Shown piece by piece: positions 47,153 to 60,352 of a stretch of 60,352 nt of DNA. This DNA is from Candidatus Hebobacterum abditum (GTDB taxonomy: Bacteria; Armatimonadota; Hebobacteria; Hebobacterales; Hebobacteraceae), in assembly GCA_029821875.1 (NCBI GenBank), contig JALGXW010000020.1, positions 1-60,352 of the forward strand. Direction: 5' to 3'. Under the pieces are notes generated by a model. That model worked only from the letters and a program-made list of their open reading frames with translations. It had not been told where the DNA came from and ran no database searches. How positions within the stretch are numbered: the first letter of the stretch is position 1; every line of letters begins with the position of its first letter. A program made the position numbers and the translations under genes.

Positions 47153-48463
47153 CTACTGCCCGTAGCGCTCCCGGTAGAAGTCCAGCATCTTCTGGACCTC
47201 CTCCCAGCTGAGGCCGCGCCGCCACCTGTGGTGTTCAGACTCGAGCACGGGCGCGGAGAGGCCCGGCTTGAGGTGCTCCACCTCCGGCAGGAACTCGTTG
47301 TAGAAGTTATCAGCGACCTCGTAGAGTCCATGCCACCAGGCGTAATCCGGACCGGACATGGCGGCACCGTGGCGGGCGCGCCTCCCCTCGTGGTGCCAGA
47401 GTTTGAAGTACGTCCATTCGATCTTGTCGTCGAACGGCACGGGTGTGATCAGCCCTTCAGCCTTGAGCTGCCGCATCAGGTCGGCCGCTGGCTTCGCGAA
47501 CTTCTCGTTGTAGAGCACAACGAGGCTGTCATACTGGTAGTAGAAGTTGTCCACGAAGCCGGACGAATGGCAGCTCGCGCACACATCCTTCATGTTGGCG
47601 CGGCGGGCGTCGGCGTTCTCCAGCTTGGTCGAAATGAGTGGCCGCAGAGTCCAGCTGATGCGTAGCCCCACGTCGTGGGTGGCCGGCTGGTTCTTCGTAG
47701 CGCTCATGTGGCAGGAGGCACAGGTCGGATAAGGATAGTCCCTCGCCGGCAGCCATTCCCCGCCCGGTCGGTCAAGGTTCATGCGCTCCCTATGCGCCTG
47801 ATAGAGGATGCCGTGCTTGGACTCGTTGTAGATCTCGATCTGCGGGTGGTCAGGTCCCATATGGCACTTGCCGCAGTTCTCCGGCTGGCGCACCTGGCCC
47901 ACGGAGAAGGCGTGCCGGGCGTGGCAGGCCGAACACGAGCCTGCGCTCCCATCGGGGTTCACCCGGCCGATGCCAGTGTTCGGCCACGTGGTCGGATCTA
48001 GCTTCCCGTCGGGGCCTGCCTTGACGGTGCTCCCATGGCATTGGCGACACCCCACGTCCACCGCCTGGGGTCCGCCGACGATCTCCCCCAGCATGTTGTC
48101 CAGGGAGCCGATGAACTGCGCACCGCGCGAGTGATGGCTCCGCTCGAACTCCTCGCTCTCCTTGGGATGGCAGCGTGCACAGTCCTTGGGGGTGACGAGG
48201 ACAACGATGTTCTGGCCGTAGTGCTCCTGGATATCAGGGCGTTCTTCTCCCTGGGCGACGTGACAGTCCGCGCAACTGACAGCCTCTGTCGCATGAAGGC
48301 TTTGGCCCCAATCCGCGGCGATTCCAGGCGTGAGGCTCTCGTGACAGAGGAGGCACGGGTCCTTGGCCTCGGCGGCCTCTGCTCGGCTGGTACCCCCAAT
48401 TGCAACAGCGAAGAGGATGAGAAGCGCTCGAAGTAGATTCGACGAACATGCCGGTCGTGTCAC
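47153..48463 (-). CDS. octaheme cytochrome c, hydroxylamine oxidoreductase-like
   Basis: A 436-residue exported cytochrome with a signal peptide (LLRALLILFAVAIGG) and eight CxxCH motifs, at residues ~37, 64, 95, 139, 177, 197, 248 and 295. The blocks NESKHGILYQAHRERMNLD, PTCASCHMSATKNQPATHDVG, and CASCHSSGFVDNFYYQYD then YNEKFA are those of the HAO family. A tyrosine in SGPDYAWWHGLYE (Tyr374) could correspond to the cross-linking Tyr of oxidative HAO, but this needs alignment; reductive relatives that turn nitrite into hydroxylamine or ammonium lack it. The GTG start overlaps the siroheme-protein stop by 4 bases. It acts outside the cytoplasmic membrane. Confidence 0.9.
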   Translation of the reverse strand: MTRPACSSNLLRALLILFAVAIGGTSRAEAAEAKDPCLLCHESLTPGIAADWGQSLHATEAVSCADCHVAQGEERPDIQEHYGQNIVVLVTPKDCARCHPKESEEFERSHHSRGAQFIGSLDNMLGEIVGGPQAVDVGCRQCHGSTVKAGPDGKLDPTTWPNTGIGRVNPDGSAGSCSACHARHAFSVGQVRQPENCGKCHMGPDHPQIEIYNESKHGILYQAHRERMNLDRPGGEWLPARDYPYPTCASCHMSATKNQPATHDVGLRISWTLRPLISTKLENADARRANMKDVCASCHSSGFVDNFYYQYDSLVVLYNEKFAKPAADLMRQLKAEGLITPVPFDDKIEWTYFKLWHHEGRRARHGAAMSGPDYAWWHGLYEVADNFYNEFLPEVEHLKPGLSAPVLESEHHRWRRGLSWEEVQKMLDFYRERYGQ

Positions 48464-49377
48464 GCACCTGCCTCCTCAGATGGTTGTTCGCGGGTGAATC
48501 GTGGATCACACGAACGAAGCGCGGCCTCGACGCTTTCGTCTCGCGCGATGAGACTCCCCAGCCGCTCGCCGGGCTCGCCCCTGCGCATGAGAACCGAGAG
48601 GACGGCGGCGAGCAGGTCTCGGACTGCCTGCTCGCCCGCGGAAGTGAGGAGATCGGCGGCAAGGCGCGGATGGCGACCCAGCTTCCCGCCCACCATGCTC
48701 CGGAAGCCGCTGCGTCCGGACTCAAGAGCTCGCGTCTGACACGCCCGAACGCAGTCACCGCAGGCGATACAGCGCTGGGCGTCGATGACCGGCAAGTCGC
48801 CCCGCAGAAGAACAGCCTCCTCACGGCAGGCGCTTAGGCAATCTCCACACGCGGTGCAACGTTCTGGCGTGAGCGTCGGGGCAGCCTGCCCGATGACTCC
48901 GAAGTCGCAGATATGCGGTTGGGAGCAGGCATTCGGACATCCCGCGACGGCCACCCGGAAACGGTGATGGGAGAGGATGGGCCGCCCTTCGCGGCCCTCG
49001 GCCAGGTGCTCCGGGAATCCCGATGCCTCAATCTCCTCGGCCAGTGCGTCGGCGACGGCCTCCACGGGAACGAGACTTCTGGGACACCCGACTGCGCCCG
49101 CGCAGACCCCAACGTGATAGGTGCGGGTCCGACGTTTCTCCCCCTGCTCGGCAACGAGTCGGCTCTCAAGCTGTTCGATGAGGCCCGGCTCGGGTCGAGC
49201 GGCGTCGCCGGTCTTCCCGCCGGAACCGATCTCCGCCCGAGCCCGTCGCACCAGGTCAGCAGTCACGTATTCGGCCCCGACACTCTTCGCGAAGTCCTCT
49301 ACCTTCCTGCGAACGAAGGACCGAAGCAGTGCCGGCGCTCTGGCCAGGGCACGCTCGGCGTCAGCATCCCACCGCAC
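48460..49377 (-). CDS. siroheme nitrite/sulfite reductase-like protein with two 4Fe-4S domains
   Basis: A 305-residue cytoplasmic redox protein. Residues ~1-45 (MRWDADAERALARAPALLRSF...) resemble the small PCP_red-type domain. The siroheme/4Fe-4S motif is complete: CAGAVGC (Cys92, Cys98) and CPNAC (Cys147, Cys151). Two ferredoxin clusters follow, CTACGDCLSAC (174-184) and CIACGDCVRAC (203-213). The layout resembles AsrC-like anaerobic sulfite reductases and related assimilatory or dissimilatory nitrite/sulfite reductases, but it is short. The GTG start follows GAGGAGAGG. The 4-base overlap with the octaheme cytochrome gene argues that the two act in one pathway of nitrite, hydroxylamine or sulfite reduction. 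Confidence 0.85.
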   Translation of the reverse strand: MRWDADAERALARAPALLRSFVRRKVEDFAKSVGAEYVTADLVRRARAEIGSGGKTGDAARPEPGLIEQLESRLVAEQGEKRRTRTYHVGVCAGAVGCPRSLVPVEAVADALAEEIEASGFPEHLAEGREGRPILSHHRFRVAVAGCPNACSQPHICDFGVIGQAAPTLTPERCTACGDCLSACREEAVLLRGDLPVIDAQRCIACGDCVRACQTRALESGRSGFRSMVGGKLGRHPRLAADLLTSAGEQAVRDLLAAVLSVLMRRGEPGERLGSLIARDESVEAALRSCDPRFTREQPSEEAGA

Positions 49378-49623
49378 GACGTTGCCTCTCCTCTTGCCCG
49401 GACCGCCTCTCAGCCGAAGCCAGGAGGTCAGCGCGGACGAGTTACGTCGTTAAGAAGCTCCCTCCCGCCTTCCACGGTCACAAGCATTGGCCTGCGTGTA
49501 CCGGCCGCTCCCGCCGTGAAAGCACCGGTCATTGTCAACCGACTGCGACATCGCCTTGCTGGCCTAGGAGGGCTCGGCGATGCGGCTCGTCGACCGCGGC
49601 GATGTGGTCGACCTCACGAAGGG
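49378..49623. other. intergenic, nothing certain
   Basis: About 245 bases lie between the siroheme-protein start and the end of the ATP-grasp gene. An AGGAGGG followed by a 16-codon plus-strand frame (49579-49629) is noted but unconvincing. Confidence 0.3.
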
Positions 49624-58692: not shown

Positions 58693-60352
58693 TCATGATT
58701 GCTTCAGCCTCTCCTCGAAGCGAGTATAGAGCAGGCTGACCACAAGCAGGACCACCCCCAGGCCGAAAAAGGACACGATGCGATAGGGCGGTTCGAGGAA
58801 ACTGAGATCGAATATGAACACCTTGCCGATGGCCAGATACAACAGCCCCATGGCGAACAGCCGAACCGGGCGGTTGCGCCTCCAGATTCCCGCGGACAAG
58901 CCGCCCAGCGCGTACACGCTCCAGAATATCGAAAGGGAGAGCTGCTGCGCACTCTGGCGATCAGCATGAAGCGGCGAGACGCCGAAGTGCTGCCAGAGGT
59001 CAACACTGATGAAGACTAGCGCGAACAAGTTTGCCACCAGGACCAGTGGACCGACGAGGCCGGCCTCTTCCTTGGAGACAGCGTCTCTCGCCGAGCGGAT
59101 GAGATAGGCCGCGGCAGAGGCCGCGACTACAGCGGCAGCCCCTGCGAGCAGGCGGGTGTTCAGCAGCAACTGGAATGGCTGGGGGTCTGCCAGCAGGTCT
59201 ACGAACGGCACCTTCCCAATGGCAAGAGCGAGCAGCGCCAGAGAGAACACCCTGAGCGAGGCATTCCGGCGCAGCAGCGCCACAGCCAGCGCGGCGACTG
59301 CATAGATGCTCCAGAACACGCTCAAGCCGCACTGCTGGGTGCTCGCGCGACCCGCGGGGTTCGCCTCCAGGTCGAGGTGCTGCCAGAGATCAAGGCTGAC
59401 AAACAGCAGTGCTAGTGTGTTCGCGACCAACACCAGCGCCGCCGGCAAGTCAGCCTCCCACTGGGAGACGTCCTCTCGCCGCCGCGCGAGCAGCCAGGCG
59501 GCGATGGAGGAGGCGGCGACCACAGCGGCCCCTGCGAGCAGGCGCGTGTTCAGCAGCAAGCTGAATGGCTGGGGGTCTGCCAGCAGGTCTAGGAGCAGCA
59601 CCTTCCCAATGGCAAGAGCCAGCAGCACCAACGCTCGCAGCGGCGCATTCCGGCGCAGCAGAGCCACAGCCAGCGCGGTCACTGCGTAGATGCTCCAGAA
59701 CACGCTCAAGCCGCAGTGCTGGGTGCTCGCGCGACCCGCGGGGTCCGCCTCCAGGTCGAGGTGCTGCCAGAGGTCAAGGCTGACAAACACCACTGCCAGT
59801 GTGTTCGCGACCACCACCAGAGCCGCTGGCAGGTCAGCCTCCCACTCGGCGACAGCGTGTCGCCACCGCGCGAGCAGCCAGGCGGCGATAGAGGAGGCAG
59901 CGACCACAGCGGCCCCTGCGAGCAGGCGCGTGTTCAGCAGCAAGCTGAATGGCTGGGGGTCTGCCAGCAGGTCTAGGAGCAGCACCTTCCCAATGGCAAG
60001 AGCCAGCAGCACCCGCATTCCGGCGCAGCAGCCCCACAGCCAGCGCGGCCACTGCGTAGACGCTCCAGAACACGGTGAGGCCGCACTGCTGGGTGCTCGC
60101 GCGACCCGCGGGGTCCGCCGCCCGGCCGAGGTACTGCCACAGATCCAGGCTGACAAACACTACTGCCCAGGTATTCGCGACCAACACCAGCGCCGCTGGC
60201 AGGATAGCTTCCCACTCGGAGACGTCCTTTCGCCGCCGCGCCAGCAACCAGGCAGCGACAGAGGAGGCAGCGACCACAGCGGCCCCTGCGAGCAGGCGCG
60301 TGTTCAGCAGCGGGCCGAATGACTGGGGGGCCAGCAGGAGGTCCACGAACAA
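58693..60352 (-). CDS. DUF2339-like polytopic membrane protein, partial, with internal frameshift
   Basis: The gene enters from the right edge (5' end missing) and ends at 58693. The protein is almost wholly hydrophobic, built from ~128-residue blocks of about four helices. Each block reads LLALAIGKVLLLDLLADPQP, then NTRLLAGAAVVAASSIAAWLL, then VANTLALLFVSLDLWQHLDLEA, then GLSVFWSIYAVAALAVALLRRN. This pattern and the C-terminal FIFDLSFLEPPYRIVSFFGLG are typical of DUF2339. Near 60013 one block lacks 14 bases (between AGCCAGCAGCAC and CATTCCGG) relative to its neighbour, shifting the frame, so as given the gene is interrupted. Function unknown. Confidence 0.8.
59308..60352 (-). repeat. tandem ~384-bp coding repeats within the DUF2339 gene
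   Basis: Stretches such as GCTGGGTGCTCGCGCGACCC recur at about 59335, 59719 and 60089. The spacings are 384 and 370 bases, the latter shortened by the 14-base deletion. Adjacent units are nearly identical at DNA level, far above what protein constraint needs, pointing to recent duplication or gene conversion. The array continues past the window edge. The last C-terminal unit (58693-59307) is more diverged. Confidence 0.85.

Follow-up and report, generated by a model that had tools for sequence, protein, structure and literature searches.

Among solved structures, the nearest to the cytochrome described here is IhOCC of Ignicoccus hospitalis (Igni_0955, 4qo5), an octaheme cytochrome of the HAO family that reportedly reduces nitrite as well as hydroxylamine and is said to do so without the Tyr cross-link. 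Other Tyr-lacking, reductive HAO-like proteins are Kuenenia kustc0458 (6h5l) and the epsilon-Hao of Nautilia and Campylobacter, for which reduction of nitrite to NO, hydroxylamine or ammonium has been proposed; the nitrite-reducing role of kustc0458 is disputed (PMC11897245). Octaheme "Onr-like" proteins of anaerobic carbohydrate-degrading Phycisphaerae and Hao-like proteins of Armatimonadota have likewise been proposed to reduce nitrite, and Hcp and Asr are also recorded in Armatimonadota (PMC11266412, PMC10290634). Since this earlier work already put forward Hao-like or Onr-like proteins, Hcp and Asr, nitrogen-oxide chemistry in such bacteria is not new. On the siroheme side, the best comparison is offered by AsrC, the group III Dsr-LP proteins and the C-terminal half of Fsr. 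In Fsr, the residues that hold the porphyrin come from one protomer and meet a cluster that belongs to the other (PMC13381448); four Arg/Lys residues bind the substrate in MjFsr, namely R355, R423, K460 and K462 (PMC10229431).

Here we describe a locus of Candidatus Hebobacterum abditum in which genes for both kinds of protein overlap, located within the 60,352-nucleotide stretch of DNA analysed (hereafter the window). On balance we lean towards reading it as a two-gene, translationally coupled unit by which this anaerobic member of the Armatimonadota would deal reductively with nitrogen oxides (nitrite, NO, hydroxylamine). The direct pairing of an octaheme cytochrome with a siroheme-type protein, and the half-siroheme family with a PCP_red domain to which the latter belongs, appear to be undescribed in the literature searched. 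The Phycisphaerae and Armatimonadota proteins resemble the present cytochrome as orphan octaheme or Hao-like proteins of anaerobic polysaccharide degraders, but in the accessible parts of the two reports neither an adjacent siroheme-type gene nor the PCP_red half-siroheme family is described (PMC11266412, PMC10290634).

The overlapping genes and the exported cytochrome

Both genes lie on the minus strand. The upstream one, running from 49377 to 48460 (GTG start, TGA stop), encodes a 305-aa, predicted cytoplasmic protein that combines a PCP_red domain, half of a NIR_SIR reductase and two [4Fe-4S] ferredoxin motifs; the downstream one, from 48463 to 47153 (GTG start, TAG stop), encodes an exported octaheme c-type cytochrome of 436 aa. 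As the initial annotation had placed them, they share four bases, GTGA at 48460..48463, in which the siroheme-type gene ends and the cytochrome gene begins. Each start is preceded by a Shine-Dalgarno-like sequence. An AGGAGG-like ribosome-binding sequence, read directly at 48471..48476 on the minus strand, lies inside the upstream gene with AGGAGG seven bases ahead of the cytochrome start, and a AGAGGAGAGG-like sequence precedes the siroheme-type start within the intergenic stretch 5' of the unit (49378..49623, minus strand), a probable promoter region. The overlap suggests that the pair is co-expressed. No FNR/HcpR-type palindrome with two or fewer mismatches was found in 49378..49623; weak matches of this type are in excess window-wide, and three copies come from a 384-bp tandem repeat (59117-60329 of the window; 3.2 copies, 87% matches). 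The pair is flanked on one side by a PylC-like/ATP-grasp gene, with more polysaccharide genes further upstream, and on the other, on the opposite strand, by genes for a GH130 phosphorylase, an acetyl xylan esterase and a LacI regulator. The G+C content of both genes is in line with that of the window.

The cytochrome carries eight CXXCH motifs and an N-terminal signal peptide and has no C-terminal anchor. It matched the Pfam family Multi-haem_cyto at 1.3e-28, and its best match among HAO-family structures was at 5e-50, improving to 8e-73 when a family profile was used, so that its description as an exported eight-haem member of the HAO family was borne out. IhOCC was the top structure in both searches (4qo5, 5e-50; profile 8e-73, 248.8 bits), whereas the remaining HAO-type structures reached 7.5e-34 or weaker with the profile, at about 120 bits or less. 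Judged by sequence, the protein is thus a member of the HAO family and of its IhOCC-like subgroup. The match to IhOCC extends over most of the length; both proteins have eight CXXCH motifs, and in the (G)xDxxx motif both place an aromatic residue at the position of the HAO cross-link Tyr. IhOCC is however longer (521 versus 436 aa), has Asp-Val where the present protein has Asp-His (GPDHP), and has Trp where Tyr or Phe is found here. With kustc0458 and the epsilon-Hao proteins it shares the HAO family and GPDHP, but in contrast to them it has no dedicated cytochrome partner.

Twelve Armatimonadota relatives with 49-58% identity were aligned, further ones being present as fragments. The GPDHPQ segment (D205/H206), which lines up with the active-site Asp-His pair of HAO, and all haem motifs are invariant in 13 relatives. 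At residue 374, in the motif GPDYxxWHG, 11 of 13 sequences have Tyr and the other two (L064, L068) have Phe; the same position is occupied by Trp in IhOCC and in an Archaeoglobus relative. The equivalence of Tyr374 and the HAO cross-link Tyr, which the initial annotation had put forward for checking by alignment, rests on the shared motif, because HMMER left that stretch of HAO unaligned. With Phe in two relatives and Trp in IhOCC, the HAO-type haem-Tyr bond is not constant in the group, and a cross-link at Tyr374 is ruled out as a conserved feature. These data also bear on whether the octaheme protein might be a true oxidative HAO that converts hydroxylamine to NO or nitrite, with the siroheme protein reducing the product in the cytoplasm. 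Although Tyr374 sits at the Trp position of IhOCC and the Asp-His pair of HAO is present, we regard this as highly improbable, given the substitutions at residue 374, the closest solved structure being IhOCC, the fact that no cytochrome c554-type partner was seen beside the cytochrome, and that no oxidase was found in the genome.

Neither a fixed partner gene nor a conserved quinol-linked cytochrome partner was recognised beside the Armatimonadota relatives, whose neighbouring ORFs were mostly read by eye. One relative (L071) is followed by a prismane/Hcp gene, and beside another (L072) an Rrf2 regulator gene lies in divergent orientation. For the cytochrome itself, the AlphaFold model (pLDDT 54) was too poor for use.

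A half-size siroheme-type protein

The second protein has no evident export signal. Pfam assigned it a PCP_red domain at residues 3-47 (49239..49371, minus strand; PF08369, 1.7e-11), which the initial annotation had not mentioned, followed by NIR_SIR and two ferredoxin motifs. Its cysteines form a CX5C (C92/C98), a CX3C (C147/C151) and two 4Fe-4S ferredoxin motifs, all of them invariant in nine family members. The NIR_SIR_ferr domain (PF03460), in contrast, was absent by Pfam from this protein and from nine relatives, while a positive control from the same genome (L002) was detected at 1.3e-16. The earlier description as a siroheme protein with complete cluster motifs is therefore right about the cluster cysteines, but the missing NIR_SIR_ferr domain leaves only half a siroheme reductase. 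The same absence, together with a score of 76 bits against the AsrC model TIGR02912 (cut-off 324), rules out this protein as an ordinary AsrC working with AsrAB, which had been named as one of the findings that would refute the initial reading. AsrC, Dsr-LP and the C-terminal half of Fsr share with the present protein the order of their elements, a NIR_SIR core with CX5C...CX3C and a pair of ferredoxin clusters, but here a 45-aa PCP_red domain replaces the NIR_SIR_ferr half and the set of substrate-binding Arg/Lys residues appears to be partial.

An AlphaFold model of the protein (pLDDT 74) matched Fsr at 1.8e-15, in an alignment of about 229 columns; a separate match was to the PCP_red domain structure 2kru. 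In a pairwise alignment, Lys460 and Lys462 of Fsr correspond to R139 and R141. MjFsr R355 probably falls in the segment missing here, and R423 was unaligned, with R85 as a candidate equivalent; three members of the half-siroheme family have Ser at the fourth Arg/Lys position. Besides, the N-terminal portion of the porphyrin-holding scaffold of Fsr has no counterpart in the half-size protein. Binding of siroheme and substrate is uncertain because the NIR_SIR_ferr segment is missing from a half-size protein; siroheme binding nevertheless seems plausible, and the site may hold siroheme.

This kinship raises the question of whether the locus is a sulfite module, with the half-siroheme protein as a sulfite reductase of compact build and the octaheme cytochrome reducing sulfite or another sulfur oxyanion outside. 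The best structural and sequence relatives of the half-siroheme protein are indeed the sulfite reductases Fsr and Dsr, a family member occurs in Moorella sulfitireducens, R139/R141 preserve two of the four Arg/Lys positions with which Fsr binds sulfite (PMC10229431), and the Asr of marine Armatimonadota was proposed to act on sulfite (PMC10290634). On the other hand, nitrite is also commonly reduced by siroheme enzymes (PMC13381448), the fourth position is Ser in the three members named above, and the genome already holds an assimilatory-type siroheme (sulfite) reductase elsewhere, L002, next to cysK. Moreover, nitrogen-oxide genes recur beside family members, whereas no sulfur-metabolism gene was seen in the neighbourhoods examined. 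We consider a sulfite module quite unlikely.

Co-occurrence and gene neighbourhoods

Adjacent copies of the two genes were found in one of 291 Armatimonadota genomes, the host itself, in agreement with the initial suspicion that the pairing is unusual. Two further genomes (G231 and G232) encode both on different contigs, and it is these that hold the closest cytochromes (58% in the alignment) in addition to the siroheme protein. The cytochrome subgroup is present in 3 of 7 siroheme-positive genomes versus 14 of 291 overall (hypergeometric p 0.003; two of the three from one family). Most relatives of either gene occur without the other, and neither was found in G001, a genome of the same genus that is 92% complete. 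The trees do not settle the placement of the siroheme protein of the window, and they neither support nor exclude a shared donor or co-inheritance of the pair.

It has to be asked, then, whether an ordinary orphan octaheme cytochrome simply overlaps an unrelated siroheme-type gene, with no joint function. The overlap is confined to one genome, the relatives of either gene are usually not adjacent to the other, and the pair lies inside a carbohydrate/polysaccharide region, all of which would agree with chance. We nonetheless give this explanation a low probability, as translational coupling usually takes this form (four shared bases and a good ribosome-binding sequence), the siroheme family stands repeatedly beside other periplasmic nitrite/NO reductases, and both genes are absent from G001 as would be expected of a unit, although two separate losses or gains are also possible.

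Full-length members of the half-siroheme family with PCP_red were found in Peptococcaceae, Moorella sulfitireducens and several Armatimonadota, and shorter members without this domain in Bacillota, Actinomycetota and Archaeoglobus. In a survey of 348 Bacillota genomes, 37 carried a family member (E<=1e-45). NrfA was encoded by 16 of these 37 versus 48 of the 311 others (Fisher p 1.7e-4, ancestry not corrected for), and in three of the 16 genomes with both, the siroheme-type gene and nrfA lie within 5 kb (binomial p about 2e-5, likewise uncorrected for ancestry). In G554 (L149), the same-strand run nrfA-resB-ccsA is followed by a PCP_red siroheme-type gene, which resembles the present locus in that a periplasmic multihaem protein, there a nitrite reductase, lies near a PCP_red half-siroheme gene, but with NrfA in the role of the octaheme protein and with resB and ccsA in between. 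Elsewhere, nrfHA is divergent from a CODH-siro-Crp arrangement (G417; siro denotes the half-siroheme gene) and norC-norB from siro (G335); NarG, cytochrome c, qNor, YwiC, siro and an Rrf2 regulator share one strand in G045; CcoN-like and DUF1858 genes precede siro in G008; and a Crp/Fnr gene adjoins it in G221, G298 and G420. NrfA, ResB, qNor, Prismane, Rrf2 and other neighbours were confirmed by Pfam, whereas the identification of NrfH in G417 and of some further neighbours comes from reading the sequence. Because many other family members have neighbours without a nitrogen link (CODH, MoxR/VWA, PPC domain, 2-oxoacid oxidoreductase), the linkage to nitrogen oxides is a tendency. Two recurrent arrangements were also observed: in three Bacillota genomes (L148, L150, L153) a short half-siroheme gene is followed by genes for a MoxR-type ATPase and CoxE/VWA-like proteins, as read from sequence, and at L155, L157, L169 and L173 half-siroheme genes have genes for the catalytic subunit of anaerobic CO dehydrogenase nearby (confirmed in one case by TIGR01702), frequently accompanied by nrfHA and genes of the Crp family.

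Host genome and proposed function

The nearest named relative of the host, in the same order, is Armatimonadetes CS1-C002. A family search (PF00115) found no haem-copper oxidase or NO reductase in the host genome, gene absences being judged here by family search only, and carbohydrate enzymes adjoin the pair, which makes an anaerobic, carbohydrate-using setting reasonable, as the initial annotation had assumed. Its suggestion of an electron sink for sugar fermentation is doubtful, because complex I and large multihaem and molybdopterin complexes are also encoded; judged by its gene content, the host is more aptly called an anaerobe with respiratory potential than a pure fermenter. Contig C67 of the host (G000) carries, next to complex I genes, ResB, CcsA-like, 6-haem and 9-haem cytochromes and a 671-aa cytochrome with 28 CXXCH motifs and a NapC/NrfH N-terminus (L175:5319-11265), and contig C82 carries an 18-haem cytochrome with a Tat-type PhsA-like molybdopterin subunit and NrfD-like and TtrB-like subunits (L172:1631-7013). 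A siroheme-dependent haem biosynthesis operon, also on C67 (L176:618-7065), comprises a CysG-N/HemC fusion, a CobA/HemD fusion, an AhbC/NirJ-type radical SAM protein, HemB and a fused AhbA-AhbB. The genome thus encodes a route to siroheme, with CysG-type, HemC/D, AhbA/B and AhbC/NirJ-type genes.

That haem is made via siroheme in this host (AhbA/B, AhbC/NirJ-type radical SAM, CysG, HemC/D operon) also fits a different role for the half-siroheme protein, namely as a carrier of siroheme or another tetrapyrrole, or as an accessory factor for the haem supply of multihaem cytochromes, rather than as an oxyanion reductase. Outside this family, PCP_red forms the C-terminus of BchB, a protochlorophyllide reductase, and family genes adjoin multihaem cytochrome or cytochrome-assembly genes in several genomes; PCP_red would then help to bind tetrapyrrole, and the link with nrfA, ccsA and octaheme genes would reflect demand for haem c. 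We hold both the role and this account of it to be unlikely. The ligands of the siroheme-coupled cluster and the two ferredoxin clusters are all invariant, which suggests redox catalysis, the gene lies outside the Ahb operon of the host (C67), and nitrogen oxides account better for the norBC, narG/qNor and Crp/Rrf2 neighbours.

We therefore return to the reductive handling of nitrogen oxides, the reading that we prefer. Outside the membrane, the IhOCC-like octaheme cytochrome would reduce nitrite and/or hydroxylamine, with ammonium as the probable product, and a NapC/NrfH-type multihaem cytochrome encoded elsewhere would deliver the electrons to it from the quinol pool. Inside, the two 4Fe-4S clusters of the half-siroheme protein would pass ferredoxin-level electrons to a [4Fe-4S]-coupled tetrapyrrole, and the protein may deal with nitrogen oxide that reaches the cytoplasm. 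We infer the substrate, the direction and the electron donors of this module. In its favour, a NapC/NrfH-type multihaem cytochrome (28-haem) is present in the host genome, and the neighbours of the siroheme family include nrfA/ccs, nrfHA, norBC, narG/qNor, Rrf2 and Crp/Fnr. Against it, the pair is adjacent only in the host genome, where nitrate reductase and NO reductase are not established and a PhsA/TtrB/NrfD-like molybdopterin complex is present. The split pathway for nitrite, hydroxylamine or sulfite envisaged at the outset is accordingly narrowed: nitrite and hydroxylamine fit the neighbourhoods of the siroheme family, while sulfite lacks neighbourhood support and has a separate reductase beside cysK. 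More tentatively, and as a possibility that we would put well short of even, the PCP_red half-siroheme protein may represent a new minimal class of siroheme/tetrapyrrole enzymes, in which one half of the reductase has given way to a protochlorophyllide-reductase-type domain. Such an enzyme would reduce nitrogen oxides in the cytoplasm with electrons from ferredoxin, working alongside multihaem nitrite reductases of the periplasm (NrfA/octaheme).

Octaheme HAO-like proteins of anaerobic carbohydrate degraders are widespread orphans, and the pair gives one of them a concrete candidate partner. The compact half-siroheme family recurs beside nrfA, norBC and narG and is apparently uncharacterised in the literature searched; this recurrence would bring periplasmic nitrite reduction together with a siroheme-type step in the cytoplasm. 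The structural question that the family poses is whether half a siroheme reductase with a PCP_red domain can hold siroheme and reduce nitrite or NO; if it can, this bears on the evolution of siroheme reductases from single repeats.
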